Source of the DNA: Acidobacteriota bacterium
GTDB lineage: Bacteria > Acidobacteriota > Blastocatellia > UBA7656
DNA: 64,000 bases
Assembly: GCA_038040445.1 (NCBI GenBank)
Contig: JBBPIG010000002.1
Span: forward strand, 186,001-250,000
Direction of reading: 5' to 3'
The notes under the pieces: model-generated
Seen by the model: the letters and a program-made list of their open reading frames with translations, nothing else
Database searches by the model: none
Told to the model about the DNA's origin: nothing
Shown: piece after piece, positions 1,810 through 29,360 of the stretch
Layout: every line of letters starts with the position of its first letter
How positions within the stretch are numbered: the stretch's first letter is position 1
Made by a program: the position numbers and the translations under genes

Positions 1810-3396
1810 TCAGGGCGCCACAAATACAAGTTCTACTCGCCGGTTCATCGCGCGCGCAGCCAATGTCTTTCGCGCCGAGACCGGAATCGTCGCGCCGCGT
1901 GATTCGACTCTGAAGCTCGAACGCGAGACGCCGAGCGCCGCCAAATAGTCTGCTACTGCCTGTGCGCGGCCCAGCGCAAAAGCGTCCGCGTTGGGCCGCG
2001 AGTCTGAATGGCTCTCGATAGAGAACGCGGCGTCCGCATGAGCTGCGATGAATCTCGCAAGCGCGTCCATCTTCGACTTCACTCTCACGTGTAGAGTCGT
2101 CTGGTTCAGCACGAAGAATGAATCGCTCAGCGTAGCTGCAAAGCCGTTCCCGCTTGGCTTCACAGTGATGAGCGCGGCAACTCCCGCCTGCAACGCGGCG
2201 AAGTCCCGGCGGCGACCTTCGGCTAGCTGCTTTTCGCGCTCAGCCCGCTCCATTGCTTCGACTCTTGTGGAGGTTTCGTTCAGCTTCGCGTTTGTCGAAG
2301 AATACTGCGACTGCAACTCGGCAACGCGCCCGCGCGCTTCCGTGAGGTCCTGGCTCAGGCGATCAGCCTGGTTGCGCAGCCTGTCGGTCTCGGATTTGAG
2401 TGAGCGATTTTCCGCTCGCGCATCAGCGGCTTCACGCATCACCCGATCGAGTTGGTCTTGCGCGTTCTCGCGAGCGATCTCGGAAGCCCTCAATCGCGAC
2501 TGGGTGTCGGCCAACTGCGAGCTGAGATCGGAAGCTGTATCGGTCGCGCGGCGCACCTCGGCATCGCGCCGGGAGATCTCGGCCCGCCGCTCGGCCGCTA
2601 GCGCGCGCTCTTCGGCGATGTCCCGGGTGCGGACGGCCATCGTTATGGACTCGCGCGCGATTCGGCCTACGTCGTGGACCTTCGCGCCGTGACGAAACGC
2701 GTCTTCAGCTTGATTGAGCAAGTTCGCCGCTTGATTGAAGTCGTTGGGGGCGTAACGCTCGCCGTCAGCCAGCCGGGCGATTTGCACCGCTCGTCTTGCT
2801 TGCAGAAGTTCCATCGGAGTCTTGTTGTAGTCTCGCTCGGCAAGCGCCGGCACGCTCGTATCGGTGTAGTACTTGCCCGAGTCGCCGGCGAAGGAGATCT
2901 CCGAGACTTGCACCTGAACGTTTTTGGATGTTGGCGCCAGGTTCTCGAGCACTACCATGCGAGAGGGCAGCTTCACCAGATAATGAGGCTCGGCGGTTAC
3001 GATCATTGCGAAGGTCTGTTGCGGAGTCGCCGTTTTGAGCCGAGCCGAGCTGCCCGAAAGACGAAACTCTCCCAGGTTATCCACCTGCCCAGCGGGCGTG
3101 ATGGCCCACAACACATAAGTCGTATAGTCGGCTCCGTAGTTGAATGCCGGGTTCATGTTTTGAATGGTGATATCTATCTCGCTCTCGTTTCGTTTGCGCC
3201 ACCGTTCGACTGTAGCTTCGCCGCGCGCGGTCGGTTTGAGAGTGGTGCCGGCCAATTGCACGGAGACAGGATCTTTCAAGTAAGTGACTGCTATGGTTCG
3301 ACGGCGAACGTCGCCCCCGGCTTGCCCAAAGGCGAGTGAGCCGAGCGCCAACGCCGCCAGCAGAACGCTGATCGAGATCGTGGGAGACTTTTTCAT
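1810..3396 (-). CDS. OmpA-family envelope protein with coiled-coil rod
   Basis: A signal peptide (MKKSPTISIS...) leads into a beta-rich N-terminal half, then a DUF4398-like helical part (about 200-270, containing LLQARRAVQIARLADG and FNQAANLLNQAEDAF), a long charged coiled coil (about 270-390) and a C-terminal OmpA-like peptidoglycan-binding domain (SHSDSRPNADAFALGRAQAV, ending NRRVELVF). The start at 3396 is chosen because AGAGG lies 6 bases before it; an in-frame ATG two codons earlier would overlap that site. Expected role: outer-membrane or periplasmic protein tethered to peptidoglycan. A strong terminator follows. Confidence 0.85.
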   Translation of the reverse strand: MKKSPTISISVLLAALALGSLAFGQAGGDVRRRTIAVTYLKDPVSVQLAGTTLKPTARGEATVERWRKRNESEIDITIQNMNPAFNYGADYTTYVLWAITPAGQVDNLGEFRLSGSSARLKTATPQQTFAMIVTAEPHYLVKLPSRMVVLENLAPTSKNVQVQVSEISFAGDSGKYYTDTSVPALAERDYNKTPMELLQARRAVQIARLADGERYAPNDFNQAANLLNQAEDAFRHGAKVHDVGRIARESITMAVRTRDIAEERALAAERRAEISRRDAEVRRATDTASDLSSQLADTQSRLRASEIARENAQDQLDRVMREAADARAENRSLKSETDRLRNQADRLSQDLTEARGRVAELQSQYSSTNAKLNETSTRVEAMERAEREKQLAEGRRRDFAALQAGVAALITVKPSGNGFAATLSDSFFVLNQTTLHVRVKSKMDALARFIAAHADAAFSIESHSDSRPNADAFALGRAQAVADYLAALGVSRSSFRVESRGATIPVSARKTLAARAMNRRVELVFVAP

Positions 3397-3727
3397 ACAC
3401 ATCCTCTCGCTGCGGAGAAATCTAACAAAGCCGCGCCCGGGGCTATCGGAGATGCGCCTTGTTGTTGAGTTTAACGCCGGTAGCAGAGTGAGGTTTCACA
3501 ACGCGAATTCTAGCAAGCGCGCGTTGACGCTCACAAGCCAGCAGAACACCGGGCAAACTGCCCGGGATGATCCTTAAGAGCTTTGGCGACCAAGCGACTT
3601 GAATGTCGGGCGAGAGATCCAACAGTGGTGTCGTTCTCCGGGTCAGCGAGCGAACCCGTAGGTACCTCCCTTTCTGCTCACTGAACGTTCGTTATCAAGC
3701 TAGGAGCACTAACCGGTTTCATCACAA

Positions 3728-3786
3728 CTCGCTTGCATAGGCTTCTCGGTAAGCATTCGTACCCCGGTGAAGCCTATTCAAGCGAG
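3728..3786. repeat. large hairpin in the 3403-3801 spacer
   Basis: An 18-base arm at 3728-3745 (CTCGCTTGCATAGGCTTC) is matched in reverse complement at 3769-3786 with one mismatch; the 23-base interval contains a further short GGTA/TACC pairing. It starts 16 bases after the stop codon of the cytochrome gene, so it may protect or end that transcript, but no T-run follows on either strand. The rest of the 399-base spacer has no gene I can support. Confidence 0.6.
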
Positions 3787-3801
3787 CTAGCCTTCACTCA
3801 G

Positions 3802-5304
3802 CTAAAGCGACAATAGGTACTGAACCAGATCATTTTTCTCTTGATTGGTCAGACCCAAGGTGAAGCAAGTGTTATAGTGATTAACGACATCCAGCAAAGT
3901 CGCAAAGCGACCATCGTGGAAGAAGCCGCCTTTCTGGTGCGACCACAATCCTTTCAAGGGCGATGTGCGGTACCGCCTGTCCGGGCCGCGATTGGCCTGA
4001 AAATCATCAATGCAAACATCTGCCGCCGTGTGCAGGTTCCAGCCAGGTTCCGTGTAGATTGGGCTCACGTGACAGTTGTTGCATCCCGCCTTGCCTTCAA
4101 ACAGCTTGTCGCCGCGGTCTGCTGCGGCTTGGTCAAAGCTACCATCCGGGGGCTTCGGCGCGGGAATCGCAAGTTGATAAAAGTGGAGCGCCGGAAGCTT
4201 GGCTGTAATCAGGTCATCGTCAGGATTAATGTGTGGCAGATCGGCGAAGCCGTGCGATGCGGCGATAGGAAATTGCGCAGCGTTATTCAAGCGAGGATCG
4301 AAGAACCTGCCCTTTCCGTGCATCTCAAGATTAGCCACGAAGGCATTCCAGTGTGTCACCGATCCCCATCCGGTCCAGGTGTGAAGGTTCACTCCTACAA
4401 GTCCGAACGCGGGCGGTATCAACGTAGCGCCAGGCACATTCGTGCCTGTCACAACACGGTTGGAGATCTGTTGCGGATTGAATGCCTTGCCGTCCAGGAA
4501 TAACTCTGCATCAAACTTTCCCGGCCCCCAACTGTGAAGCACCTGTCTGACAGTGTCCTGGCTCACGCCAAGAAGATTCGCAACCGAACTGAGGTCGGGG
4601 GCAAGAGCGATGACTGCGCCTACATTGAGGTCGCGGTTGGCCCACCCATCAAGGCGATGGCCTATACCCGAAGCCAGCGAGTTATCAACCGAGGAGTGAC
4701 AAATAGCGCACGTGATCCCAACTGATTTCAACCTGTCGCCCTGAAAGATTCCCTTCACTCCTATTACAGCATTGAGTTTCAGCAGAGCAAGCGTGGTGGC
4801 AGAGTTGTTGAGATCAACGCGGCCCTTTTCCAAGTCCTTCCGTAACTGTTTGGGAAGGGCGTCGAGGTCTACTTTCAAGCCGAGACCGAGCGCTGCCGTC
4901 GGAGTCAAGCCCGGCCCAACGCCTCCCAAGCTTGCACCCTCAATTGCCTGATGGAGCTTAAGCAGATCGCCCCAGAAAGCTTCATCACCGAAAGTATCAA
5001 ACCGAAAAGTTTGCCTGCCTTCGTCCATCATCCTCTCTGCATTAGCAGTGATCTGATCGTCGAAACTTTTCACTTTCGCTTTTTGGAGCTGTACCTGAGC
5101 GGCTGATTGATCCTGGGCTCGGCCCCTGTCAATGTACAGGAACAGAAATGCAACGCCGGCCAGCAGGATCACCACTAAAGAGACAAGTTTTTTGAAGTGC
5201 ATAGCGCGGGCTTTGTGAGGTGAGATTTCTTGTTGTCCGTGGCCTTGCAACGCAAAGTCGCGGTGCTGCGTGGATGTGTTGATTTGCTTGACGTCGTCAT
5301 CCAT
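3802..5304 (-). CDS. membrane-anchored di-haem cytochrome c (CcP/MauG-like)
   Basis: A 500-residue protein with two CxxCH haem c sites, CAICH near residue 200 and CNNCH near residue 410, in the arrangement of di-haem cytochrome c peroxidase/MauG relatives; the C-terminal region (RTSPLKGLW, FFHDGRF, LVQYLLSL) matches the second haem domain of that group. A hydrophobic anchor (about 39-57, MHFKKLVSLVV...) follows a 34-residue polar leader. GGAGG lies 9 bases before ATG 5304, and no such site precedes the internal Met at 5202, so the longer start is preferred although the shorter one would give a normal signal peptide. Likely a periplasmic redox enzyme; the substrate is unknown. It is divergent from the HTH gene. 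Confidence 0.85.
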   Translation of the reverse strand: MDDDVKQINTSTQHRDFALQGHGQQEISPHKARAMHFKKLVSLVVILLAGVAFLFLYIDRGRAQDQSAAQVQLQKAKVKSFDDQITANAERMMDEGRQTFRFDTFGDEAFWGDLLKLHQAIEGASLGGVGPGLTPTAALGLGLKVDLDALPKQLRKDLEKGRVDLNNSATTLALLKLNAVIGVKGIFQGDRLKSVGITCAICHSSVDNSLASGIGHRLDGWANRDLNVGAVIALAPDLSSVANLLGVSQDTVRQVLHSWGPGKFDAELFLDGKAFNPQQISNRVVTGTNVPGATLIPPAFGLVGVNLHTWTGWGSVTHWNAFVANLEMHGKGRFFDPRLNNAAQFPIAASHGFADLPHINPDDDLITAKLPALHFYQLAIPAPKPPDGSFDQAAADRGDKLFEGKAGCNNCHVSPIYTEPGWNLHTAADVCIDDFQANRGPDRRYRTSPLKGLWSHQKGGFFHDGRFATLLDVVNHYNTCFTLGLTNQEKNDLVQYLLSL

Positions 5305-5359
5305 TTCCTCTTACCTCCATTGAAACTGGTACGCATTCCCTGCGAGCGTCCACCTGAGT

Positions 5360-5381
5360 AAATGCCTTCCGGCATTTTTGG
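5360..5381. repeat. small hairpin between divergent cytochrome and HTH genes
   Basis: AAATGCC and GGCATTT (5360-5366 and 5371-5377) enclose a TTCC tetraloop and are followed by a T-run on the plus strand. No plus-strand gene ends here, so on the minus strand it would lie in the 5' leader of the cytochrome transcript. Role unproven. Confidence 0.4.
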
Positions 5382-5480
5382 TCGCGGCTGTAATCAGCTA
5401 GTATTAACTCTTAACTGGCGTCGCCTTAGCCGCAACGCTATTAGCATGCATCCTAATACTTGAATTGTAAAGGAGCTTTG

Positions 5481-6080
5481 ATGACCGATCCGAATGAATA
5501 CAAGGGGCTACGATTCGCCTGCGAGTGTGTGTCGTCGCAGAGTGGGTACGGTGATCCATGGGCTAGTATCTCTCAAAAGAAGCTGCTCCCTGACGGCACA
5601 AAGGAAAGCATCATAAACTCGGTAGGTAAGGAGCCGAAGACAATAGCGCAGCTTGCCAAGGAACTCGATCTTTCGCAACCAAGTATTCATAGGCACATCG
5701 GTGAAATGATGGCCAGTGAGCTCTTACGTGAATCTGAAGAGTGGGAGAGGAAGTATCCCACCGAGCGTTATTACGAGCCTAACTTTCCTGTCGTGAGAGC
5801 GGATGAACGCGCCGAGTTTGAAGCTGCTTGCCAAGAGATGGCCGAGCGTGTGGCTGACCTGTTTGAAAAGCGGCGCAAACAACTCGAAAGCGCTTTCAAT
5901 AAGACCGATCTGGCTAATCGGGGATGGATGTTTGCAGATATTGCACAATACCTCTACGCTAGCGTACAACGCGGCGCGCGCGAGTTGCTCGAACAACGTG
6001 GCACGCTTCAGCCGCGCGAAAAACACCGCAATGGCGTAGAGTGGGTTTTCTGGGCAGAGGAAGCAGACGCAAACAAATAA
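5481..6080 (+). CDS. ArsR-like winged-helix transcriptional regulator
   Basis: A 199-residue protein with an N-terminal winged helix (KESIINSVGKEPKTIAQLAK, LDLSQPSIHRHIGEM; about residues 35-80) typical of ArsR-type regulators, followed by a helical C-terminal part. AAGGAG is placed 6 bases before the ATG at 5481, so an upstream in-frame TTG at 5460 is rejected. It is transcribed away from the cytochrome gene, sharing a 176-base control region, so local control of that gene is possible. The effector is unknown; no metal-binding Cys cluster is evident apart from CEC near residue 15. Confidence 0.75.
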   Translation: MTDPNEYKGLRFACECVSSQSGYGDPWASISQKKLLPDGTKESIINSVGKEPKTIAQLAKELDLSQPSIHRHIGEMMASELLRESEEWERKYPTERYYEPNFPVVRADERAEFEAACQEMAERVADLFEKRRKQLESAFNKTDLANRGWMFADIAQYLYASVQRGARELLEQRGTLQPREKHRNGVEWVFWAEEADANK

Positions 6081-6127
6081 TAAGAACCAGCCTCGGCGCG
6101 CGGTCTCTTGCGAAAGCCCGCTGCGTT

Positions 6128-6653
6128 TGATCAGGAAAGCACATGGCTCAGCGTCGAGTTGAGGTCGTCAAACAGGATTGGCTTGAAGATCACCTCGCTC
6201 ACAAGCTCACGGTTGTCGTCAACGGTCTCAGCCGGAACGGCGTGGCCGGTTATCAATACCACCATTACACCTGGCCAGCGGCGCACTTCGCTCGCCACCG
6301 CCCAGCCTTCCATCTCGGGCATCGAAAGATTGGTGAACACCAGATCGAATTGGTCACGCTCGAGCTTGGCAAGAGCCTCGTGCCCGCTTCCCGCATGATC
6401 GGTGCGATGACCAGCCGAGTTCAGCATGCCTACCAGCGCTTCGCGAACCCGCTGATCGTCGTCTACCACGAGCACATTTGCCGACCGCGGGCGAGCCCTG
6501 CGATCGCGCTTCGCTTGCTTCTGAACGCTATCGGCTACCGGCAGCCTTATGGTGAACGTAGTGCCTCGGCCCGGGCTGCTGCGCGCTTCGATGCGGCCGC
6601 CGTGCCGTTCGATGATGCTGTAGCTCACCGCCAGCCCCAGCCCTATTCCTCAG
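6128..6653 (-). pseudogene. truncated copy of the hybrid-kinase 3' end (HATPase tail plus REC)
   Basis: The translation from 6652 down ([15 protein letters not shown], then a whole REC domain ending VLS) parallels the last about 175 residues of the kinase at 9865-14373, in the same orientation. It has no N-terminal kinase part. The phosphoacceptor Asp of the full copy (LVFTDLSMPE) is Asn here ([10 protein letters not shown]), and one Arg of RRRWPG is missing. A 127-base stretch I compared by eye differs at 11 positions. Upstream it runs straight into the maturase remnant at about 6650. Judged a dead fragment, though an internal ATG at 6628 could still give a 165-residue product. Confidence 0.8.
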
Positions 6654-7135
6654 CCGTGTCTTGATCCGTGGCCGTGGCCCCTCGAAATGATCCAACAGGT
6701 CTTTGAAGCCTTGCCAGTTTGAAACTCAAACGTTGGCTTCCTCTGTTCAACCACTCCAGCAGAATCTCCATTGCCCTGCCGTAGAACTCTTGGATTCCGG
6801 CAGCATACCCTTTCACTCCAGAGTAGTTGTAATACCCACGGAGCTTCCGGTTCAGCAGCGGGAAGAGCACACGGAGCCTGACGTTGCGCTTCTGCTTGCA
6901 CCACTGGGTGAAGTTGGCGATCGAGGAGTTTCTTTCTGGAAGTTCGGCGCGCTACGTGAGGCTTGCCCGCGCGGTCTTTGTCCCAGAGAAACTCGAACCC
7001 GAGAAAGTCGAATCTCGATGAGCCTGGCTTGTTGCTTCGACTGAAGTGAATCACTCTCGTCTTGTCAGCAGCCAGGTAGAAACCTACGTTTTCGAGCCGA
7101 AACGGGTCAAGCGCCTGTTTGATTAAGCGGCGTGG
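6650..7135 (-). mobile_element. group II intron reverse transcriptase/maturase remnant
   Basis: Three minus-strand frames read in order give the C-terminal part of a group II intron-encoded protein: LIKQALDPFRLENVGFYLAA, SSRFDFLGFEFLWDKD, RRTSRKKL, then IANFTQWCKQKRN, LFPLLNRKLRGYYNYSGVKG, EWLNRGSQRLSF, then NWQGFKDLLDHFEGPRPRIK. The frame changes near 6945 and near 6720 (one extra A before the NWQG segment), so it cannot be functional. The RT catalytic YADD part is absent. The reading frame collides with the truncated kinase copy at 6650. Confidence 0.85.
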
Positions 7136-7160
7136 TTAGACGGCTTCGTGAAAGCAAGCC

Positions 7161-7517
7161 TCACGCCTGAGTTGGCAAGCTTATCTCGGGCGCAATGTGT
7201 GCCTCCGCGACACACGGCCATTTGCGAATAACATCGACATAATCCGCAGGCGATTCGCCCGGCGGCAGAATCACCTGAACATAGCGTTGTAACTCCCGTT
7301 CGTGCTTCGACAGCTTCGACGGGTCGGCCCCGGCGAGAGTCGGCACCTTGTAGACTATTCTGCTGTTCTTAGGCAGATCGCCACGTGGTGTAAACTTCTC
7401 GCCAGAGTCCGACTCGAAGACGCGGCGGCTCCGGTCAAGCCTCCATCCGGTCTTCAATTTCAAATCCACAGGAATCCTGATCTTGCTATCAGAGGGCAAC
7501 GTCACCGGTGGAATCAT
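7161..7517 (-). CDS. small propeptide-like partner of the downstream-paired subtilase
   Basis: A 118-residue soluble protein without signal peptide, 16 bases after the stop of the subtilase on the same strand. Its C-terminal third (RYVQVILPPGESPADYV, VIRKWPCVAEAHIAPEI) aligns by eye with the subtilase's own pro-region (GFVQVVPKNS, NRKEAVWKAYVAPRPVP). This suggests an I9-like inhibitor or chaperone module supplied separately, but the function is inferred only. No stronger family is recognised. It borders the maturase remnant. Confidence 0.65.
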   Translation of the reverse strand: MIPPVTLPSDSKIRIPVDLKLKTGWRLDRSRRVFESDSGEKFTPRGDLPKNSRIVYKVPTLAGADPSKLSKHERELQRYVQVILPPGESPADYVDVIRKWPCVAEAHIAPEISLPTQA

Positions 7518-7533
7518 CTCAGCACCATCCAGA

Positions 7534-9027
7534 TCAGACTTTCTTCATCGCCATCGGGAGATTCGGCAGCGGACCAATGTTCTGCGTCAACGGCACGCCT
7601 GGACCGGGTTCTTGGGGGGTGCCCGTATTCATAAGGAACTTTCTGACTTTGTGCGGCGGGAGTGGCGAGCCATTCTTGGCTTTCGCCCGGCCTTGAAGAC
7701 ACGCGACGGCTCCAGTGATGATCGGTGAAGCGCTTGAAGTGCCCGAGAATCGAAGAGTGTACCAGGAGTTCTCTGAAGCGCCGCCTTGTGCGTCACCATA
7801 TCCCAGCGTCGTAACATGCCAACCCCAGCCTTGGACGTTGACGATCTTACCATAGTTCGAAAAGAAGATGCGCGAACGCGGTACGCCGAGCGAAGTGTAC
7901 GAGGGGAGCGACGCTCCGAATCCATCAAAGTCAACGTGATTCGCCGGAGGAACACCTGCGCCTACTACTATCGCGCCGCTGTCTTTTTGCAAACCGGTTC
8001 CATTAAAGATCGCCAGATCGAAGTTCTCATCTCCGTTGCCCGCCGCTTCAACGACGGTAATCCCCTTAGCGGTGGCTGCCACAATGGCAGAAAAGATGTC
8101 GCCCCAGAACTGCATAGCAACGAATTTTCCGTTTGGCCCGGTGGCCTGCAACTCGATGAGGATTACGTCCCCGGCCTTCAAGAAATTCGCCGCGTTATTG
8201 ATTGCAGCGGCCGTATTGAACACTCCGCCGACTATAGCCGAATGAACGACGGCCTTTGCCTGGTGGCTGATGCCAACTGTCCCTTTGTTGTTGGGTATGG
8301 AAATCATCTCGCCCAGCACCGCGGTGCCGTGGTTTCGCCAGCCCAGATCATCGATCACGGTGCCGCCGATGAGTTGAATGCCCGAAGGCAAATCTTCGTG
8401 CTGCCGGTTCCAGTTGCCTTCGATATCGCAGATTGTGATGCCCTTGCCTTTCGCTCCTGCGAGGCTCCATACTTCGGCGGCTCCGATGCCATTTGGGGGC
8501 GCGTAAAGATAGCCCTGTGCCGGTTCGAAGTTGCGGCTTCCGGGGGCTGTACCGGCAGGCATCGCGGGCACGGGACGCGGTGCGACGTACGCCTTCCAGA
8601 CCGCCTCCTTCCGGTTAAGCTCTCTTGCGATCTTGCCGGCATCGCGGCTGTTCTTTGGAACGACCTGGACGAAACCGCTTTGAATGAACTCAGTGTCCAT
8701 TCCTTTGTCCTTGAACTTGTCAGGGTCGGGCTCCGGAGGCAAAGCCGCCGCGATTCCAACCCGCGCACGAACCGCGGCTGATTTCAAGCCGAAATGGGAG
8801 CGTATGGCCGCGACATCATACTTCGCCAGAACCTCGTTAAGCTTCTCCGACTGCGGAGCGGCGGCGGCAGGCGCCGCAAATCTCGACGCTGTGAATGCAA
8901 CAGGGCTCTCGTAACGCAGTTCGACCACGACGTAATCAGGGACGTCGGGCGCTTCAAACCTGGTGCCGACAAACCCCTCTTTGGTCTGCTGGCCTGTTTG
9001 TACCTTGGCTTTCTGTTTCTTTGGCAT
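7534..9027 (-). CDS. cytosolic S8 subtilisin-like serine peptidase
   Basis: A 497-residue protein with the catalytic triad of family S8: Asp in ITICDIEGNW (about 210), His in WRNHGTAVLGE (about 240), Ser in FSGTSSASPI (about 440), plus the oxyanion Asn in EAAGNGDE. There is no signal peptide (MPKKQKAKVQTG), and a pro-like region precedes the catalytic domain (VQVVPKNSRD..., about 122-155). AAGGAG lies 6 bases before the ATG. It is followed at 16 bases by a small protein resembling its pro-region, suggesting a peptidase/inhibitor pair. It lies in the island flanked by duplicated kinase tails. Confidence 0.88.
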   Translation of the reverse strand: MPKKQKAKVQTGQQTKEGFVGTRFEAPDVPDYVVVELRYESPVAFTASRFAAPAAAAPQSEKLNEVLAKYDVAAIRSHFGLKSAAVRARVGIAAALPPEPDPDKFKDKGMDTEFIQSGFVQVVPKNSRDAGKIARELNRKEAVWKAYVAPRPVPAMPAGTAPGSRNFEPAQGYLYAPPNGIGAAEVWSLAGAKGKGITICDIEGNWNRQHEDLPSGIQLIGGTVIDDLGWRNHGTAVLGEMISIPNNKGTVGISHQAKAVVHSAIVGGVFNTAAAINNAANFLKAGDVILIELQATGPNGKFVAMQFWGDIFSAIVAATAKGITVVEAAGNGDENFDLAIFNGTGLQKDSGAIVVGAGVPPANHVDFDGFGASLPSYTSLGVPRSRIFFSNYGKIVNVQGWGWHVTTLGYGDAQGGASENSWYTLRFSGTSSASPIITGAVACLQGRAKAKNGSPLPPHKVRKFLMNTGTPQEPGPGVPLTQNIGPLPNLPMAMKKV

Positions 9028-9309
9028 ATCGATTCTCCTTCAGTGGATTCTTTTCTCTTAACTGGAATAGACGGAACTTCGTCATGCCACGATGCAGAAC
9101 TTTTTGAATGGTACGATTTTTTTCCGCGAGTGAGGTGTAGCAGAAGAGCGGCTGCTGCGCGACGCCGCGGCAATTCGGCTCGGGTTCTTTTAGTCAAGCG
9201 CGGTCATAGTGTATGTTCAACGGCGACTTGCGTGGCCGCTCGGGTCGGGTCTGAGGGAGAGGGTGCCCAGGCCGCGTCGAAGTCTTAACACGTTTAGGCG
9301 CCAGCCTCT

Positions 9310-9693
9310 TCAAAATGAGTGTCGCCCCATATACCCTTCCATTGCTTCTTTTGGGACGAAGCTCTCCAGCGGGAAGTCTTCACCAAACGCTGCCCTGCTG
9401 TATTGTTCTATCCCTACCGGCTCCTCGAGCATCGGATCATAGACTAGGCCCTCGCAGCAGCACACATAATGCTTTGTCCAGGTGATACTGCCGTAATACT
9501 TCTTCGGAATGAGAGGGTGGTGAAATCGATATCCTGGTCTGACCGTTTCCTTATGCAAGCACGCAATGAAAGGCTGATGTCCAACATCGATCAGCAATCT
9601 GGCAATATCACGTGCTATTGCCAAACAGTTGGCTTCATAGCTGTCTGCGAGCAGGCGTCGTTTGTCGGTTAAGTAACTTAACAGCGATGACAT
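9310..9693 (-). CDS. small papain/transglutaminase-fold protein
   Basis: A 127-residue protein with a probable catalytic Cys in a helix (SYEANCLAIARDIARLL, Cys23), a His after a beta strand (TWTKHYVCCCEG, about 80) and Asp in GLVYDPMLEEPV. The order Cys-His-Asp and the GLVYDP segment recall papain-like or transglutaminase-like domains used both in peptidases and as effector or toxin tips. No signal peptide and no clear Shine-Dalgarno site are seen. It is the last gene of the island between the kinase-tail copies. Activity is inferred. Confidence 0.55.
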   Translation of the reverse strand: MSSLLSYLTDKRRLLADSYEANCLAIARDIARLLIDVGHQPFIACLHKETVRPGYRFHHPLIPKKYYGSITWTKHYVCCCEGLVYDPMLEEPVGIEQYSRAAFGEDFPLESFVPKEAMEGYMGRHSF

Positions 9694-9822
9694 ATATCGT
9701 TACTCTGGACGCGGTTGAGTATACGGCAAGTCTTACAATGCGGTAAGGCGGAGTTGATCAGGTTGCGGGCTTTACTCTGCTCGCCGTGGCTCCTTGCGGA
9801 TCTGTGCACCCGGAGCTCAACG

Positions 9823-9851
9823 CGGAACCCTGAACCCGGAACTCTGAACCG
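9823..9851. repeat. 29-base dispersed repeat, copy 1
   Basis: A 29-base sequence beginning CGGAACCCTGAACC is identical base for base at 29470-29498. It lies between the papain-like gene and the hybrid-kinase stop codon, just outside the duplicated kinase tail. Confidence 0.8.
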
Positions 9852-9864
9852 CGAAGCGTTCAGA

Positions 9865-12800
9865 TCAGGAGAGCACCTGGCTCAGCGTCGAGCTGAGATC
9901 GTCAAAGAGGATTGGCTTGAAGATCACCTCGCTCACAAGGTCGCGATTGTCGTCAACGGTCTCAGCCGAAACGGCATGCCCGGTTATCAATACCACCTTT
10001 ACTCCCGGCCAGCGGCGGCGCACTTCGCTTGCCACCGCCCAGCCATCCATCTCGGGCATCGATAGATCGGTGAACACGAGATCGAATTGAGCATGCTCGA
10101 GCTTGGCAAGAGCCTCGTGCCCGCTTCCCGCATGATCGGTGCGATGACCGGCCGAGTTCAGCATGCCTACCAGCGCGTCGCGAACCCGCTGATCGTCGTC
10201 CACCACCAGCACATTTGCCGATCGCGGGCGAGCCCTGCGATCGCGCACAACTTGCTTCTGAACGCTGTCGGCTACCGGCAGACTTATGGTGAACGTAGTG
10301 CCGCGGCCCGGGCTGCTGCGCGCTTCGATGCGGCCGTTGTGGCGTTCGATGATGCTGTAGCTTACCGCCATCCCCAGTCCTATGCCGCTCGTGCCCTTGG
10401 TCGTGAAGAACGGCTCGAATACGTGCTCACAAACGTCGCTGGTCATTCCAATTCCGCTGTCGGTCAAGCTCGCGTGGATGAAGCCGTCTTTTAGGTCAGT
10501 GGCGATTCGCAGGCGGCCTCCTTGCGGCATCGCGTCCAGCGCGTTGAGGATGATGTTTACGAACACCTCGCGCAACTCCGACCCCGACCCTCTCACGCCG
10601 GGAATTGTGTGAAGGTCCAGGTCGACGTCGTACTGCAGGCCGCGCGCTTGCGCTTCGTCGCACCATCGAGCCTTGGTGAGCGTGGTCGAATCTTGAATCA
10701 GTTGATTGACATCAATCGCCTCGTTCAACCCTTCGTTTTGCTGAACTCCAAACGCCTGAATGCGCTTCACCGTTTGGGCGCCGTCTAGCGCGGCCTGCTC
10801 GATGATATCGATGCGCTGGGCCAGCCCTTCATCCGGACAATCGCGCTTTATCAGTTGAGCGTGTCCCAGTATCGCGGCAAGTATGTTATTGAAGTTGTGC
10901 GCTACCCCGGACGCCAGTTGACCCAGCGCGCGCAGCTTATCAGCCTGGGCCGCGCGCTCGCTCGCCACGCGGTCCTCGGTGATGTCGCGAGCAATCGAAA
11001 GGATGCTGGTAACTCGCCCTTCGTCGTAGATCGGCGTGTGGGTGAGCAGGAGCAGCCGGTTCTCGCCGCTCTTCCTAGCGACGTTCATTTCGAACGTCTG
11101 AGCTTCGCCTTCGAGCGCGCGCGTGAATCGCTCGATCGCGACCTTCTTCTGATCGCCGAAAACAAACAGCCGATAGTCACCCGATTCAAGTTCCTGCCGC
11201 GAGTATCCGGATTGCTTGATCAACTGTTCGTTAAACCAGATCAGGCGGCCTTCAGGCGAGAACGCAAGTATCGCGTCATTGGCGTGCTCGATCAGCTTGA
11301 CGAGGAAGCTGCGCTGCTCGCGGGCGACCGCCTCCGCGGCTCGCAGCTCTGACAGATCTCTTACTATGCAGACCGCGCCGCGCGGACCGGCATGATCGCC
11401 GTTATCGCGCAAGCTATCGCCGAGGCCAAAATGGTTTCTGGAGCCATTTGTGACTGGAGAGATGGTAACCAGGACGGGCCGCGACAACCGCTCTGGCACA
11501 AGCTCAAAGGTGGCGGGTCTTCCTGTCTTCATCACCTGCGCGACGCGGCACGTTTCGCCCTCAACACCTTGCAGGAGGGTGCAACACCTCCGGCCGATCA
11601 ACTCGCGCACGTCAGCGCCTTCAAATGCCGCAGCCGCCGCATTGATGCGCCGCAGCACCCCGTTTTGATCGAAGATGAAGATTCCATCGCTAAGCGCATC
11701 GAAGGTGGCTTCCCACTGTACCTTGCCGTGCGAAACCAGCTCGAACAGCTCCGCGCGCTGCAGCGCGATGACGACCTGGGCGGCGGCGGCGCGCACCACT
11801 TCCGCTTCGTCGTCGGTCCAGTTGCGCGGCCCCGACTTCATGATAGCCGTGATCACCAGGCGCGGCGCGCCTTCGTAGGAGAGCCGCGCCGACATGAACG
11901 AGTGGGCGCCGGCCGCGCGAAGCGATTCCTGAGCGCGCCTATCCAGGCGCTCGTCCTCTTCGGAGTTGCAGCACAGGATCACGTCGTTTCCCACGAGGTC
12001 GGCGAACGTCATCAAGTCTTCACTGCGGTATGCCGTATCAGGCCTACAAACCTTCCCGTCGCTGTATTCGCATTCGGCTTTCCATTCCCTGCTCAGCTCA
12101 TTGAACCGCGTTACGAGAATTCTGTCCGCCGCAAGATGCTCCCCGAGCTCGCGCGCTACAACCGGGAATATTTCATCCAGCCGGTTTGACTGGTTGATGC
12201 CGTGAATGATGTGACTGATAAGCGCCGCGCGTTCGGCCGACTGCTTCGTCTCCTGAAACAGATTGCTGTGGCTGACTGCGACCTCGACCTGCGCAACGAC
12301 CGTTTCTATTAGCGCAATATCGCTTGCGGTCCACTTGCGAACGCGGTCGGTCTGATTGATCGAGAGACCGCCCCAACATGATCCATTGACAAATATCGGA
12401 CACACGATCTGCGAAAGGGTGAGTGGCTCGGTCTGCCACGTTCTAACCGTCGATGCCAGATCGGGGTATGCCGCCGCGAAAGCGCGCACGTCGTCTATGA
12501 TCAGCGTCCGCCGGGCCTCAAGCACGTAATTGCCAATATAGTCGTTGGCTGATGTCCAAACGTGACTTAATGACAGAGCCGGGTCGCTCAAATGCTCGGC
12601 GACGATGACGCTCTCATTTCGGATCAACTTGCGGAAGTAGGTTCGGTTCGCTCCCAGCGCGCGGCCGACTTCTTGCACCGCCACCCGTAGGGTCTCTTGC
12701 AGGTCCAGCGAGCGTCGAATGGAAGCGACGATTTGATTGACCAGAGAGGCGCGCTGGGCCGATTCGCGAACCTCGCGATACAGCTCAGCCTGGCGTATGG

Positions 12801-14373
12801 CCACGGCCGCTTGATCAGCAACCGATTTTACAAGATCGACTTCCCATGGCGTCCACGTGTGGGGTTGGTCGCAGTGATGAAGGCTCAGTATTCCGATCGG
12901 CTTGCCATGGACACGAATTGCCGTCGTGAGAATCGCCTTCACGCTGCCGGCCGCGATTCGGATTCGCAGCGGAGCAAGGGTCGGGTCGTTCGAAGGATCG
13001 CTTACCGCCACTGGTCTATCCGACGAGAGTACCGACTGCAAAAACGGATTGTTCACCGTTTGAATCTCGTTCAACACTGGTGGGCGGGCAGAGCAGCACT
13101 CGGCCACGTACACGTGGGTGACGGGAACCATCTCGGGCAAGGGGCTAGGAAGCAGCGCCAGGCGGCAGCGGCAAACGGAAAGCGCGACGCCCAGCTCGTT
13201 GACGATCGCTTGCAACACCGCATCCGAATTGAGCGAGCTGTGAATGGCTGAACCGATCTTGCTGATGAGCGCATCGCGTCGCGCTGCCTCTTGCGCTTCG
13301 CGATAAAGCTCAGCCTGATAGAGAGCCACCGCAGTCTGTTCGGTCACCAACTCGAGGAGCTTCATCTCATCTTTCGAGAACACCCGCGGGTTGTCGAACT
13401 GCTCGAGCGCAATTGTGCCTACGGTGTGTCCGTCGTAGCTGATCGGAGCCAGCGCTATTGCGCGCACGCCGAGCCGTACGCAGACCGCGCGCATTATGGG
13501 ATCGCTCTCGTTGGTGTCGGGTACGTCTATGATCTGGCCCGAAAGCAACTGGGCCAGCAGCGGGCTCCCTTCAAGGTCGAGCTCGCTGTCTTTCAGGGTC
13601 GGCACCAGCACGCTTGATCGGTACTCGGCTCGAGCAAGAAAGCGGGAGTCTCCGCTCGAGTCGCCGGCGCGGTGCTTATAGATCACGACTCGGGTCATTT
13701 TTAGCGTCGTCCCGATGCCGTCGACGGCGAGCTTCAATATTTCATCAACGCGGGCCGCGCTCCTGATGGCGGTCAACAACCGGTTTATGAGTGCTTCGCG
13801 GCCGGCGGCGCTTGTTGCCCGCTCCTGTGACTGAAAGTGGTGTATGGTGAGGCTCAGCGTAGACGCCGCGGCTTGCGCGAGGTGCTTGTCTTGAGCGGAC
13901 CAGCGCCGCTTGCTGCCCTGATAGAGAAGGACCGCGCCGGCGGTTTCTGAATCGATCACAAGCGGAACTAACAGGATCGACTTGATGGCCGACTCTTCCC
14001 CTCTATTGGCTCCGCGCGCGAGCCACCGGCTCACCCGTGGGTCTAATGTCGCATCCGATATTTCCAGCACTGAAGCGTGCGAGCCGACGTCCCGCGCAAT
14101 CTCGATGTCAAGCTGTCGAAGCTTCTCCCTTTCGACGGGGCCGATGCCGCTCGCGCAGTAGTCCCCCGTTCGCCTCATTCCGCTTTCATCTCGAATGAGG
14201 ATGGCTACGCGCTCAAGCCTTAGTGTGCCGCCGATCTCGTCGGCAGCGCTGCGCAGCGCGGTGCTTAAGTCGGATGATGACTGAGCAAGCGCAACTATCT
14301 TGTCGATAAGCGCGCATCCGCGCGCCTGATCTTCGCGGCGCGAGAAAAATCGGTTCTTGAAAGAGAGTCTCAT
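9865..14373 (-). CDS. five-GAF, two-PAS hybrid sensor histidine kinase with REC domain
   Basis: A 1502-residue soluble protein with no membrane segment. Five GAF-type repeats (about 20-180, 195-355, 370-540, 550-715, 725-885; several end in ...VAVALYQAELYRE-like helices), two PAS domains (about 895-1000 and 1030-1150), HisKA with the phosphorylatable His in ASGVAHNFNNIL, HATPase with N box (VNIILNALDAMP) and G boxes (DSGIGM, GTSGIGLGM), and a C-terminal receiver with DDD and LVFTDLSMPEMDG. It senses cytoplasmic signals and can pass phosphate to its own REC. It follows a REC-HD-GYP gene on the same strand, a likely partner. Its 3' end is duplicated at 6128-6653. Confidence 0.92.
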   Translation of the reverse strand: MRLSFKNRFFSRREDQARGCALIDKIVALAQSSSDLSTALRSAADEIGGTLRLERVAILIRDESGMRRTGDYCASGIGPVEREKLRQLDIEIARDVGSHASVLEISDATLDPRVSRWLARGANRGEESAIKSILLVPLVIDSETAGAVLLYQGSKRRWSAQDKHLAQAAASTLSLTIHHFQSQERATSAAGREALINRLLTAIRSAARVDEILKLAVDGIGTTLKMTRVVIYKHRAGDSSGDSRFLARAEYRSSVLVPTLKDSELDLEGSPLLAQLLSGQIIDVPDTNESDPIMRAVCVRLGVRAIALAPISYDGHTVGTIALEQFDNPRVFSKDEMKLLELVTEQTAVALYQAELYREAQEAARRDALISKIGSAIHSSLNSDAVLQAIVNELGVALSVCRCRLALLPSPLPEMVPVTHVYVAECCSARPPVLNEIQTVNNPFLQSVLSSDRPVAVSDPSNDPTLAPLRIRIAAGSVKAILTTAIRVHGKPIGILSLHHCDQPHTWTPWEVDLVKSVADQAAVAIRQAELYREVRESAQRASLVNQIVASIRRSLDLQETLRVAVQEVGRALGANRTYFRKLIRNESVIVAEHLSDPALSLSHVWTSANDYIGNYVLEARRTLIIDDVRAFAAAYPDLASTVRTWQTEPLTLSQIVCPIFVNGSCWGGLSINQTDRVRKWTASDIALIETVVAQVEVAVSHSNLFQETKQSAERAALISHIIHGINQSNRLDEIFPVVARELGEHLAADRILVTRFNELSREWKAECEYSDGKVCRPDTAYRSEDLMTFADLVGNDVILCCNSEEDERLDRRAQESLRAAGAHSFMSARLSYEGAPRLVITAIMKSGPRNWTDDEAEVVRAAAAQVVIALQRAELFELVSHGKVQWEATFDALSDGIFIFDQNGVLRRINAAAAAFEGADVRELIGRRCCTLLQGVEGETCRVAQVMKTGRPATFELVPERLSRPVLVTISPVTNGSRNHFGLGDSLRDNGDHAGPRGAVCIVRDLSELRAAEAVAREQRSFLVKLIEHANDAILAFSPEGRLIWFNEQLIKQSGYSRQELESGDYRLFVFGDQKKVAIERFTRALEGEAQTFEMNVARKSGENRLLLLTHTPIYDEGRVTSILSIARDITEDRVASERAAQADKLRALGQLASGVAHNFNNILAAILGHAQLIKRDCPDEGLAQRIDIIEQAALDGAQTVKRIQAFGVQQNEGLNEAIDVNQLIQDSTTLTKARWCDEAQARGLQYDVDLDLHTIPGVRGSGSELREVFVNIILNALDAMPQGGRLRIATDLKDGFIHASLTDSGIGMTSDVCEHVFEPFFTTKGTSGIGLGMAVSYSIIERHNGRIEARSSPGRGTTFTISLPVADSVQKQVVRDRRARPRSANVLVVDDDQRVRDALVGMLNSAGHRTDHAGSGHEALAKLEHAQFDLVFTDLSMPEMDGWAVASEVRRRWPGVKVVLITGHAVSAETVDDNRDLVSEVIFKPILFDDLSSTLSQVLS

Positions 14374-14388
14374 AGCGAAAGCAAAAGT

Positions 14389-14416
14389 AAAAAGTTGGGG
14401 ACGTGTAACGTGTCCC
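14389..14416 (-). terminator. weak hairpin with T-rich tail between regulator and kinase genes
   Basis: On the minus strand GGGAC and GTCCC (14412-14416 and 14398-14402) enclose nine bases and are followed by CCAACTTTTTACTTTTG. The stem is only 5 bp, so it may be a partial terminator between the HD-GYP regulator and the kinase. Confidence 0.35.
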
Positions 14417-14506
14417 TCGGGGCGCCCGTCAGTCGAAAAACGCTCGTGCGACGCGAGGAGAGCGATCCCGGAAAAAAGCTTTGCAGGTTCACCCTTTTGT
14501 TTTGTT

Positions 14507-15709
14507 TCATCTGGCCCATCCGCTCGCGACCTGTTCTCCCGACATGGTTAGAACAGAGTAGCGAATATCGACGCCGGTTCTGGCGTCCTTCATCGTCAGC
14601 CCCGGCTCCGTTGAGAGATGCCGAATCTCTCGCCAGCCGTCGAGCGGCACCTCGGTGAACGCTTGCACGATAACCGGGTCGAAGTGCGCGCCCGAGCACC
14701 GCGTCAACTCCTCCGCAGCGTCGTCGAAAGAACGCGCGGCTCGGTAAGGTCTATCGGAAGTCATGGCATCGACCGCATCGGCAACTGCGAATATGCGAGC
14801 GCCCAGGCATATCTGATCGCCCTCGATTCGGCTGGGATATCCGCTCCCGTCGCAGCGCTCGTGATGCTGCGCTACGATATCAGTCGCGCCTTCGAGGAAA
14901 TCGATCCCTCGCAGGATCTGCGCGCCGAACTCTACGTGGCGACGCATATACCTCCACTCGTCTTCCGTAAGTGCGTCACGTTTGAGCAGTATTCCGTCGG
15001 GGACGCCTATTTTGCCGATGTCGTGAAGCAGCGCGCCGTTTTCCAGAGTGATCAACTCACGGTCATTCAGTCCGATTTGTTTGCCGAGGCGGAGGCAGTA
15101 CGACACCACTCGATCAGAGTGGCCCTTGGTCTCCACGTCTCTGGCTTCGAGGGCGGCCGCGAGCGCGCGGAGCGTTGCGCGATAGTTCAGATACAGTTTC
15201 TCCAGCGTCGAGTTTAGATTCGTGTTTGCGACGGTCAGCTCGCTAGTGCGCAGACTAACGAGATGCTCGAGGTGCTGCTCGTACTGATGATTAGCTCTTA
15301 GCAGCGAGCGGTGGCGAAGCGCGCGAGCAACGGCGGACTCGACGTCAGACAGATCGAACGGTTTGGTCACATAGTCGAACGCGCCGCGCCGCATGGCTTC
15401 AATTGCGCTCTGGATGTTCAGGTTGCCTGAAATCAGTATGACTACAGTGTCGCGCGAGTGTCTGGTGATTTCCGCCAGGAGCTCGAGCCCGCTCATACCT
15501 GGCATCACTATGTCTGATAGGACAAGGTCATACGTCGTTTCCTTCAGGTATTCCATCGCCTCGACCGCGCTGGTGGCGGTCTTGCAATGATGCGTGGCGC
15601 CCAGCAAGGAGTTGAGCACTGAAAGAACATTCGGCTCATCGTCGATAATGAGTACTTTGGCGGGCCGATTCTGAGTGAGGCTCAGCGGCGCGCCGATCAG
15701 TCCAGTCAT
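14507..15709 (-). CDS. response regulator with HD-GYP c-di-GMP phosphodiesterase output
   Basis: A 400-residue protein: REC domain (about 17-135; acidic pair in LIIDDEPN, acceptor Asp in LVLSDIVMPGMSG, Lys in VTKPFD), a linking coiled region (about 140-190) and an HD-GYP domain (about 190-360; HSDRV, LLHDIGKIGVPD, QHHERCDGSGYP, FAVADAVDAMTSDRPYR). HD-GYP domains hydrolyse c-di-GMP. The motif reads GSGYP with all HD-core residues present, so an active enzyme is expected. It lies between the FHA fusion gene and the large kinase, which is the probable phosphodonor. Confidence 0.93.
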   Translation of the reverse strand: MTGLIGAPLSLTQNRPAKVLIIDDEPNVLSVLNSLLGATHHCKTATSAVEAMEYLKETTYDLVLSDIVMPGMSGLELLAEITRHSRDTVVILISGNLNIQSAIEAMRRGAFDYVTKPFDLSDVESAVARALRHRSLLRANHQYEQHLEHLVSLRTSELTVANTNLNSTLEKLYLNYRATLRALAAALEARDVETKGHSDRVVSYCLRLGKQIGLNDRELITLENGALLHDIGKIGVPDGILLKRDALTEDEWRYMRRHVEFGAQILRGIDFLEGATDIVAQHHERCDGSGYPSRIEGDQICLGARIFAVADAVDAMTSDRPYRAARSFDDAAEELTRCSGAHFDPVIVQAFTEVPLDGWREIRHLSTEPGLTMKDARTGVDIRYSVLTMSGEQVASGWAR

Positions 15710-15851
15710 CGGTTTTGACCTGAGATTGTGAGTAAAGTAGGGGCACAGCCCTTGATGCAGGCTGGGTCTAAAGTCCGGGGAACGGCACGATCTTAGTACA
15801 ATGAAGGGTTACGTGCAACACTTTTCTCGCCGAAATTGGAGAACTGACGAG

Positions 15852-18533
15852 CTATTGCGATTCGGCATAGTCGAGCTTGAAGTAAACACTGTCGTCGCAG
15901 ACAACGAATATGAATTTCCGTCCGCCGATCTCGACGTGAGTTATTCCCTCGGGCTTCATCTTCGGGTCGAGATCCTGCTCCCTGCGAAGCGCAGCCTCGG
16001 ATCCGCCTTGGTCGCCCGTCCATTCCCACAGAGTGAACTCGCTCTTGTCGACATTTTCGGGCGCCCCGGAAATGATCAGGAATGAGTTGGACTCCGGGTC
16101 GTACTGGATGTCGCGGACGCCAAGCCCCCCAAGCTTCAACGGGATGGCACTCGGTTCGGCAAGCTGAAGATTATCCACTGAGAATGAGCCGGCTGGGTTA
16201 CGCAGCTTGATGGCCACGATGAACGCGCTTCCATCTTTTCCGAGGGGCCCGCGCAGGCCAAGCAGCCAGCGCCCGCGTTTGAAGTCCCAGGCGATTCCTT
16301 CAATGTTTAGACCGCCTGCGCTGCCTTTCTTATCTGCATCTTTCAACTCTGGGACGTTGGCAATCAAAAAGTCGCGGAGGTTCGTCATTGTTTCTGCCTT
16401 CGGTACACTCTGACTCGCCGCATCAAAGGCGAATCTCACCAGCGCATTGCGCTCTCCGGCGTTTGGCTGAGATTGGGAGCCCACGATGTAGAAGAAGTTT
16501 CCGTCCGATGTAATGCCTTCAGGATTTTCAACCACCGCTCCAAGCGGAATCGGCTTGATCTGGCCAACCTGCTGCCCCGATTCGTCGACTTGCATCCATA
16601 GAACTTCGCCCGGCCTGCCGTCGTCAACAATGAGAACGCCGTTGCTTCCCGGAACGTGCACGGCGCCTGAGGCTTCAAAGCGCCCGCCTTGAAACGGGAT
16701 GCCTGCGCCCTGAAGCTTCATTTTAGCTTTGCCCTTCGTGCCGGTTTCGATGACCGGCTTCTCAGGTCCCGATCGCATCCAAATTGGCAACAACACCGCC
16801 AGCAACACAGCCAACACAACGCTCATCACCTGAGCAACTATTCGACTCGTGGCGCCGATGTAGGCGGCCTTCATCCGCTCGTCGCCACCTTTTTTCTTCT
16901 TTTTCTTTTTCTTCTTTTCAGCCTTCTCGGCCTCGGTAGTGCCGTCACCTGCGACGACCGCGTCCGACTTCCCTTGCGCGGGAGGCGCGCCATCAGGCGA
17001 GGCCGCCAATGCTCCAAGAGCATTCTCGGCCGGAGCCGAAGCCTCCGGCTTGGATTCGTCAGCAGCCTTCGCGAGCTTTTCCCTTTCTCCGGTATCGCCT
17101 TTCTCGCCTTTCGCAGCCGCTATTCCAGCGAGTCTTCTCACTTCTTCCAACGCTTCGCCGGACAATACCGCGGTAACGTTAGCAGAAGTCTCGCCCGGAT
17201 TTCTGAAGGTGAACACCGTCTGCCCCAGTTGAATTTTGTCGCCGTGTCTGAGCGTGTGCGCTTGCGAACCGAGCCGCTCGCCGTTGATGAAAGTACCGTT
17301 GCGGCTGCCCAGGTCGACAATGGTGTAGCCAGCGTCTCGGGCTATCACGATCGCGTGAGTGTTGCTCACGGTCGGATCAGACAGCGCGATATGGTTGTGC
17401 GCGGCCTTCCCTATTCCGACTTCGTGTTTGTCGATTAGGTACTCGAGCTTTTCTCCAGACGGCAGCACACCGATCAGCCTCGGCCCATAGTAATGATCTG
17501 CTTTTTCTCGTATCTGCGTTGCGGTAGCGAGGCGAATGCTTATCTGCGAACGAACCTCACGCCGTACTTTTTCGACAGCGCCGGTGTCGGTAGGGTCGGC
17601 CACTGCAAGGAGAGTCGTATCCGCTTCTTTCGCGAAAGGGAACAACTGGTGCTCGCGCGCGAGCCTGGGAGGAAACTCCGCAACGACGGCTTCGTCAATC
17701 TGCGTCTTGTTCAAATCGACTACCGGAATCTGAAACGTGCGGCTCATCAGATCGCGCAAGCTTTCTTCATCTGTCAGCCGCTCTTCGATCAACGCGAGGT
17801 AGAGCGTCCGGCCGCTCTTACCGCTGCGAACGCGATCAACATCGGCTTTTGAGGCAAGTCCAGCAGCCACCACAGCGAGGGCGAGCGATTCCCCGGTCAA
17901 CGGTGGGGGCGCTGCGGGTTTGCCTGCGGCCGCAGCCTGCTCAATCTCAAACGCGCCGGTCTCGCTGTAGTCAGTAATCCGGAAGGTCAGCTTCGAGAGC
18001 CCCATTCCGATCACGTCGCCGTGATTGAGTTGTCGCGGCGCGGTGACTCGCTCGCCGTTGACGACGGTGCCGTTGCGGCTCCCGATGTCATTGATCGTGT
18101 ATCCACTGCCCTCGAGGCGAACCATCGCATGAGCGCTGGACACTGCCGGATCGGCGATCACTATGTCGTTGCGCGGCCCCTTGCCGATTTGAGTTTCCTC
18201 GTTCTTGAGTTCTCGATCAAACACATCGCCCGTCGGAAGGAGAATCTTCAGGCTCGCCTTCGGCGGGGTGGCCGGTGCAGCCGGGTCCGCGCTGCCGAAT
18301 GCATTCGCATCCAGGACCACAGTGCTTGCGGGCAACGGCTTCTTGCCTGCGAGAGCCTCGGATTGCACGTTTGCACTTGAGCCGGGGTCGCTCAGTACAG
18401 GGACCGGCTCCGAAGGATTGATCTTCAATTTCAGCGAATCGTAATAGGCGTTCAGCTCCTGCCCGCACCGATAGCAAAAGCGCTGCCCTTCGCGAGCAAC
18501 GGGAGAGTTACACTTAGGGCATTCAAGAGGCAT
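15852..18533 (-). CDS. zinc-ribbon/FHA/T2SSE-N/FHA/TM/DUF3616 fusion protein
   Basis: An 893-residue protein. In order: zinc ribbon (CPKCNSP...CYRCG, 5-24), FHA domain (about 95-180; GSRNGTVVNG), GspE N-terminal-like domain (about 205-350; EERLTDEESLRDLMS, LAVADPTDT), second FHA (about 365-455; GSRNGTFINGE), charged linker with nine consecutive Lys (about 540-550), one TM (about 570-590) and an extracytoplasmic beta-propeller-like DUF3616 region (IEGIAWDF, GGLGVRDIQYD). FHA domains bind phosphothreonine, so the cytosolic part may receive a Ser/Thr kinase signal and link it to a periplasmic sensor. No Ser/Thr kinase gene is in the window. Confidence 0.85.
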   Translation of the reverse strand: MPLECPKCNSPVAREGQRFCYRCGQELNAYYDSLKLKINPSEPVPVLSDPGSSANVQSEALAGKKPLPASTVVLDANAFGSADPAAPATPPKASLKILLPTGDVFDRELKNEETQIGKGPRNDIVIADPAVSSAHAMVRLEGSGYTINDIGSRNGTVVNGERVTAPRQLNHGDVIGMGLSKLTFRITDYSETGAFEIEQAAAAGKPAAPPPLTGESLALAVVAAGLASKADVDRVRSGKSGRTLYLALIEERLTDEESLRDLMSRTFQIPVVDLNKTQIDEAVVAEFPPRLAREHQLFPFAKEADTTLLAVADPTDTGAVEKVRREVRSQISIRLATATQIREKADHYYGPRLIGVLPSGEKLEYLIDKHEVGIGKAAHNHIALSDPTVSNTHAIVIARDAGYTIVDLGSRNGTFINGERLGSQAHTLRHGDKIQLGQTVFTFRNPGETSANVTAVLSGEALEEVRRLAGIAAAKGEKGDTGEREKLAKAADESKPEASAPAENALGALAASPDGAPPAQGKSDAVVAGDGTTEAEKAEKKKKKKKKKGGDERMKAAYIGATSRIVAQVMSVVLAVLLAVLLPIWMRSGPEKPVIETGTKGKAKMKLQGAGIPFQGGRFEASGAVHVPGSNGVLIVDDGRPGEVLWMQVDESGQQVGQIKPIPLGAVVENPEGITSDGNFFYIVGSQSQPNAGERNALVRFAFDAASQSVPKAETMTNLRDFLIANVPELKDADKKGSAGGLNIEGIAWDFKRGRWLLGLRGPLGKDGSAFIVAIKLRNPAGSFSVDNLQLAEPSAIPLKLGGLGVRDIQYDPESNSFLIISGAPENVDKSEFTLWEWTGDQGGSEAALRREQDLDPKMKPEGITHVEIGGRKFIFVVCDDSVYFKLDYAESQ

Positions 18534-29352: not shown

Positions 29353-29360
29353 TCGATGGT

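Follow-up and report, generated by a model that had tools for sequence, protein, structure and literature searches.

A second kinase 3' end within a composite insertion in a Blastocatellia genome

The locus described here raises the question of how the 3' end of a hybrid histidine kinase gene came to be present twice in one genome, the second time among inserted genes on the downstream side of the intact gene. It lies in a window of 64,000 nucleotides (positions 186,001 to 250,000 of contig JBBPIG010000002.1, assembly GCA_038040445.1) from an Acidobacteriota bacterium of the class Blastocatellia, and its arrangement is read from the draft assembly of 72 contigs alone. We find that the tail copy sits within an insertion that most of the relatives compared lack, and we tentatively favour its displacement by a single homologous crossover.

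The kinase tail repeat and the limits of the insertion

In a local alignment the two tails (6129-6649 and 9863-10386), measuring 521 bp in the copy and 524 bp at the kinase end, were identical at 478 of 518 bases, with 40 mismatches and one 3-base gap, and they have the same orientation, as a first-pass annotation of the sequence had recognized; its figure of 11 differences over 127 bases agrees with this. A BLAST search of the own genome (6.75 Mb, 72 contigs) placed the tail at these two sites only, the second with an E-value of 9.6e-216 and 92% identity, and the whole kinase used as a DNA query returned only itself and the tail copy, with no second front part. The repeat covers the last 173 codons of the gene, with its upstream edge at the ATPase-domain motif GIGLG and its downstream edge 2 bases beyond the stop codon. 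No homology was found in the flanks of either edge, where scores were within the shuffle range; the downstream flanks of the two tails scored 23, against shuffles with a mean of 19.4 (standard deviation 2.8, maximum 30). The receiver aspartate region of the intact kinase reads FTDLSMPEMDGW, and codon comparison agreed with the earlier observation that the copy has Asn in place of this phosphoacceptor Asp. Gene conversion or recent exchange between the tails was rejected because no tract was seen: the mismatches are evenly spread (11, 11, 9 and 9 per quarter), and run lengths are near the shuffled expectation (the longest identical run is 55, with 52 expected).

The limits of the inserted DNA emerged from comparison with six further family members; the search covered two genomes of the genus. 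Four of the six have an empty site with one kinase 3' end in the stretch read, which the first-pass annotation had anticipated, and here the kinase stop and an OmpA-like open reading frame (ORF) are 167-415 bases apart (415 in G001, of the same genus, 167 in G005, 217 in G002 and 193 in G004, with ORF starts taken by the first-start rule). The same gap in the window measures 6,462 bases. The G001 contig is the exact reverse complement of L022, JADGNW010000385.1 (Blastocatellia bacterium Chersky_418). In the other two relatives, G003 and G006, there was no OmpA match in the stretch read and other ORFs follow the kinase, the G006 stretch extending only ~1 kb past it. Homology to the congener runs from the OmpA-like gene to ~3538 and then ends, so the insertion spans ~3539-9862 (~6.3 kb), with the tail copy in its middle, between a cytochrome-like/helix-turn-helix (HTH) pair (cassette A) and a subtilase cassette (cassette B) with a maturase relic (Table 1); both outer flanks of the insertion are collinear with relatives. 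The anatomy in the first-pass annotation is largely right, and its proposal that the repeats bracket an island holds insofar as the bracketed genes look foreign, but the insertion is longer than the bracketed part, and cassette A (3802-6080) lies outside the repeats. The congener has different DNA at the same kinase-OmpA junction (L015 2740-3069), containing an ORF that we take, from the resemblance of its end, to be a candidate DUF433-type antitoxin. The kinase-OmpA junction may be a repeated landing site.

Table 1. Features of the kinase locus, in window coordinates
Feature	Coordinates	Strand	Remarks
OmpA-like gene, likely the ancestral downstream neighbour of the kinase	1810..3402	-	Pfam OmpA, E 1.2e-9; adjoins the kinase in 4/6 relatives
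Upstream region of the OmpA-like gene, homologous to the congener	3403..3538	.	Left edge of the insertion; blastn 1818-3538 = L015 1111-2826
Cassette A, gene 1: MauG/di-haem cytochrome c peroxidase-like protein	3802..5304	-	Weak NCBIfam matches
Cassette A, gene 2: winged-helix regulator, divergent from gene 1	5460..6080	+	HTH_5, E 4.7e-5
Kinase-tail copy	6129..6649	-	Asp to Asn at codon 6329-6331; one in-frame codon deletion
Relic, C-terminal part of a group II intron reverse transcriptase/maturase	6656..7135	-	Frame-broken
Cassette B: subtilase companion, 118 amino acids	7161..7517	-	70% amino acid match adjoining the subtilase in G095
Cassette B: subtilase	7534..9027	-	Peptidase_S8, E 7e-13 (Pfam)
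ORF of 127 amino acids	9310..9693	-	No family match; relatives in family f3 only
Dispersed short repeat, GAACCC/GGAACTCT-type	9799..9850	.	Directly downstream of the kinase stop
Reference repeat copy: 3' end of the intact kinase	9863..10386	-	Phosphoacceptor Asp codon 10066-10068
Hybrid histidine kinase, intact, C-terminal receiver, 1502 amino acids	9865..14373	-	Pfam GAF, PAS, HisKA, HATPase_c, Response_reg

The inserted genes and their relatives

What the first-pass annotation called a subtilase pair is one subtilase and a companion that had no family match in profile searches. Subtilase matches occurred in 11 of the 162 genomes of the class, the own genome included (E ≤ 1e-20); the nearest is in G095, of family f3, at 79% identity, five other members of the own family reach only 41-44%, and the congener gave no match. 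Together the two genes match G095 as a single 1.87-kb block with 72.7% DNA identity, and the two-gene cassette (7161-9027) is shared, with 70-79% amino acid identity, with a genome of another family (L130, 9174-11067). No kinase tail or maturase adjoins it there; island genes lacking a kinase tail, which the annotation had held would count against its account, therefore exist in part, although that locus is unrelated. A blastn search of 12 stretches around relatives of the inserted genes found no match to the kinase or the tail copy. A role as inhibitor or chaperone of the protease is conceivable for the companion; BLASTP against its own subtilase gave an E-value of 0.49, and its structural model, with a predicted local distance difference test score (pLDDT) of 65, had no fold match at E ≤ 0.001. 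We considered whether the subtilase or the companion came from a virus and set this aside, as no relative was confirmed in viral_contigs by a search for close relatives only.

Cassette A, too, has relatives in another family. The cytochrome-like gene matches TIGR03791 (E 1.7e-7) and NF040606 (E 1.4e-5) in NCBIfam, both far below the cut-off, and a search confined to the own family returned partial matches of 32-39%. The winged-helix gene is matched in 12 other genomes (162 searched), all in family f3 and none in f1, and in G131, of another family, it is divergent from a cytochrome-like gene as here, the latter with 63% amino acid identity. With their nearest relatives in family f3, the inserted genes seem, on sequence comparison, to have been acquired from distant relatives.

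The decayed group II intron maturase of the first-pass annotation is real but weak and frame-broken, with TIGR04416 E-values of 5.9e-6 and 0.11 for two successive pieces, each far under the family cut-off, and a GIIM E-value of 0.085. Rfam found no group II intron RNA domains in 4000-16000. An active group II intron as the mover was rejected on the grounds of these lacking RNA domains, the broken maturase, and the end of the relic 12 bases before the tail, as placed by a match on contig C57 of the own genome. The C57 match is itself a short relic rather than an intact source; a search for PF08388 found none in the own genome and missed the known relic too, so further relics could be missed. 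In the C57 sequence (L103, G000:C57:16111-16232) a piece like 9222-9267 runs straight into a maturase-end piece resembling 6662-6737; in the window the subtilase cassette lies between those two pieces, which are 2.5 kb apart. The fused form is possibly a pre-insertion form of the same relic.

Relatives of the 127-residue ORF were found in 2 of 161 other genomes searched (G149 and G084, both of family f3, 44-47% identity), and this family, present in three of 162 genomes with the own included, has a conserved NCL near the N terminus followed by THYVCCC-x-G-xx-YDP. Its earlier designation as papain-like finds no family support, only a Cys...His...Asp order conserved in the two relatives, which would presumably suit a candidate papain-like or transglutaminase-like enzyme; the fold prediction (pLDDT 57) gave no useful match. 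Loci L145 and L146 were used for this ORF and the kinase tails only. The dispersed short repeat has at least 53 matches in the own genome, 53 of 56 falling on query bases 3158-3222 (a lower bound, with 40 of 149 candidates scored). Its units are like GAACCCGGAACTCTGAACC, and this satellite has two facing arrays near 29.4 kb (29358-29497).

Divergence of the copy and the explanations weighed

The frame of the tail copy is open, starting directly after a stop codon and running to the natural stop. Relative to the kinase tail, 37 codons differ, 22 of them synonymously, and one Arg codon is deleted in the copy; nonsynonymous divergence (dN) is 0.045 and synonymous divergence (dS) 0.217. Four of the changes in the copy (Asp to Asn, Asp to Glu, the lost Arg and Lys to Met) fall at positions identical in all six relatives, and two more (Ser to Asn and Gln to His) at positions common to five, L016 having Asn and Lys there. 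The intact kinase itself has Met for Leu at an ATPase position identical in 6/6 relatives and Asn for Gly at a position common to five, where L016 has Ser.

A custom likelihood branch model on an assumed tree (five relatives, seven sequences, ~173 codons) gave a background omega (dN/dS) of 0.041. L016 is absent from the codon table, as its motif was not found, but is in both branch-model fits, and L021 is in the codon table and in neither fit. With the two tails of equal age, omega was 0.155 for the kinase tail and 0.266 for the copy, a difference that was not significant (p = 0.36), and omega = 1 was rejected for the copy (likelihood-ratio statistic 12.9, p = 3.2e-4); equal age itself was not rejected (p = 0.49). 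In keeping with equal ages, the congener is equally distant from both tails (77.7% and 76.9%). With free ages, the test of background omega gave p = 1.2e-4 for both tails and p = 0.002 for the copy alone, the latter a soft value (the kinase-tail fit ran to its bound). Under equal ages, then, most of the divergence of both tails would have built up while they were functional, which would be the expectation for a copy that served as a true gene end up to its displacement, and we read the history of the copy as probable divergence under constraint followed by recent loss of function.

The best reading of the locus, held with something short of even confidence, is a one-sided homologous (Campbell-like) integration that displaced the old kinase 3' end and needed no integrase. 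The incoming DNA would have carried cassette B along with a kinase 3' end that came from a closely related lineage, and one RecA-type crossover within the tail of the resident kinase would have left the gene with an intact 3' end while the other tail, moved beyond the insert, lost its gene and decayed; a second foreign pair, cassette A, would have been inserted on the OmpA side. The order kinase, insert, tail and downstream DNA, with an edge 2 bases past the stop codon and flanks that are not shared, is what one crossover gives in one step, and the insert is indeed flanked by direct copies of a homologous segment whose flanks are otherwise unrelated. The single-tail empty sites, the f3 affinity of the inserted genes and the changes in the copy at conserved positions also speak for it. 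Of this account the repeat and its edges, the insertion relative to empty sites, the affinity of its genes to another family and the changes at conserved positions are observed; we infer the single crossover, a donor that was circular or one-sided, which of the tails was resident first, and the sequence in which the two insertions came.

Several results weigh against this integration. We found neither a donor circle nor any integrase or plasmid gene; tyrosine-integrase profile PF00589 has no match on the contig of the locus (C2) and nine elsewhere in the genome. The predicted intermediate, cassette A without cassette B, was in no genome; with the genus represented by two genomes, none is visible. 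The position test for a mosaic of derived changes around a crossover was not significant (p = 0.23), a single crossover leaves the neighbouring maturase relic unaccounted for, and with free tail ages omega for the copy rises to 0.88 and omega = 1 is not rejected. The guanine-plus-cytosine (GC) content is weak evidence, as the subtilase and companion (0.574) hardly differ from the window mean (0.570), lower values being confined to the remainder of the insert (0.533 in the cytochrome/HTH part, 0.544 in the relic and 0.526 in 9028-9862); the kinase and OmpA-like genes are at 0.60. As to the donor tail, there is no third tail in the own genome, and none nearer than that of the congener among 80 of 210 genome_contigs loci, in a search from short exact patterns; the distant kinases L024-L101 (22-30% identity) were excluded from the analysis.

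A close rival, nearly as likely as one-sided integration, is a tandem duplication of the whole kinase in which both copies were functional for a while, until foreign DNA (the maturase relic and subtilase cassette) replaced the front of the second. It accounts for the direct orientation, for a copy on the OmpA side, where a second kinase would be, for the equal distance of the tails from the congener and, under equal ages, for constrained divergence during most of the time since the split. However, at least three events are needed, the whole-kinase search left no trace of a second front part in the own genome, and the shared downstream flanks that it predicts fail, though later insertions could have erased them. 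The tandem duplication of the first-pass annotation, as it was put there, is not supported, given this mismatch downstream of the two tails. Nor is the idea that recombination between the repeats would restore a single kinase gene: the kinase was never broken, so there is nothing to restore, and looping-out, which is unproven, would remove the middle 3.7 kb only, leaving kinase, cytochrome/HTH cassette and OmpA, a form seen in none of the six relatives.

Site-specific integration at the kinase 3' end, by an element bringing a replacement 3' end like prophage e14 in icd and having since lost its integrase, is unlikely. The anatomy is that of icd/icdC (intact gene, displaced 3' fragment past the insert, ~92-93% identity, many silent changes), yet no integrase lies between the repeats, the nine integrase matches in the genome are all on other contigs, resolvase (PF00239) has no match in the genome, and the repeat is three times the length of icdC. 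We think it quite unlikely that the tail was freshly duplicated in part when the island arrived and was dead from the start; the copy does not lie at an edge of the insertion, and neutrality is rejected under equal ages, even if the changes at conserved positions would fit and neutrality stands when the equal-age assumption is dropped. An assembly or binning chimera joining strains is very unlikely: the draft state of the assembly and the resemblance of the inserted genes to another family would allow one, but both outer flanks are collinear with relatives, the cassettes match different f3 genomes, so that several switches within 6.3 kb would be needed, and the contamination estimate is 0.7. 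Most improbable of all, in our judgement, is that the 3.7-kb subtilase cassette and one kinase tail form an integrase-less mobile cassette, which would loop out by way of the tails as a circle and re-enter the same kinase in other strains by homologous recombination, with the host signalling gene as its docking site, the exchange of tails also swapping receiver alleles (Asp/Asn).

Comparison with known systems

In E. coli K-12, where prophage e14 lies in the isocitrate dehydrogenase gene, the icdC fragment is given in PMC11148124 as 165 bp with 12 changes; PMC4759930 describes 10 of the 12 as silent, and both describe an intact reading frame. The kinase locus shares an intact gene and a displaced direct 3' fragment beyond the insert with its frame running to the natural stop, an identity of ~92-93% (12 changes in 165 bp there, 40 in 518 here) and a silent majority (10 of 12 changes there, 22 of 37 codons here), as well as relatives in which the site is empty and the gene end single and uninterrupted (four of six family members). 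It differs in the length of its repeat (521-524 bp) and in a copy without the phosphoacceptor, in having no integrase match on its contig, and in having no phage family in the five inserted genes save three profiles of the subtilase (protease, unknown function and tail fibre). Since the defining integrase is missing, we do not count the locus as a member of the icd/icdC type; the known kind to which it belongs is a partial gene duplication beside an insertion.

Campbell-type (insertion-duplication) single crossovers leave the homologous segment as direct repeats on both sides of the insert, one of them truncated. The difference here is that the repeats are 8% diverged, so the donor tail would be from another lineage. 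In genomic islands at gene ends, conserved genes enclose foreign ones, and relatives have empty sites. The insertion resembles them in both respects, and differs in being small (6.3 kb) and composite, in having no tRNA site (the only tRNA in the window is at 21350) and in having no mobility gene found here save the dead maturase. Literature on acidobacterial islands and on partial duplications beside islands held nothing on this locus among the matches listed.

The locus is a new instance of a known pattern, much like the phage site of icd/icdC in E. coli. As a scar of gene acquisition in an acidobacterium it is clean and well bounded, relatives showing the empty site, and it illustrates how the description of a repeat as bracketing an island can mislead, where the repeat marks one step within a composite insertion. 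If the single-crossover reading is true, genes would have been captured at a signalling gene without an integrase, and such an exchange of tails could alter the receiver of the kinase itself.

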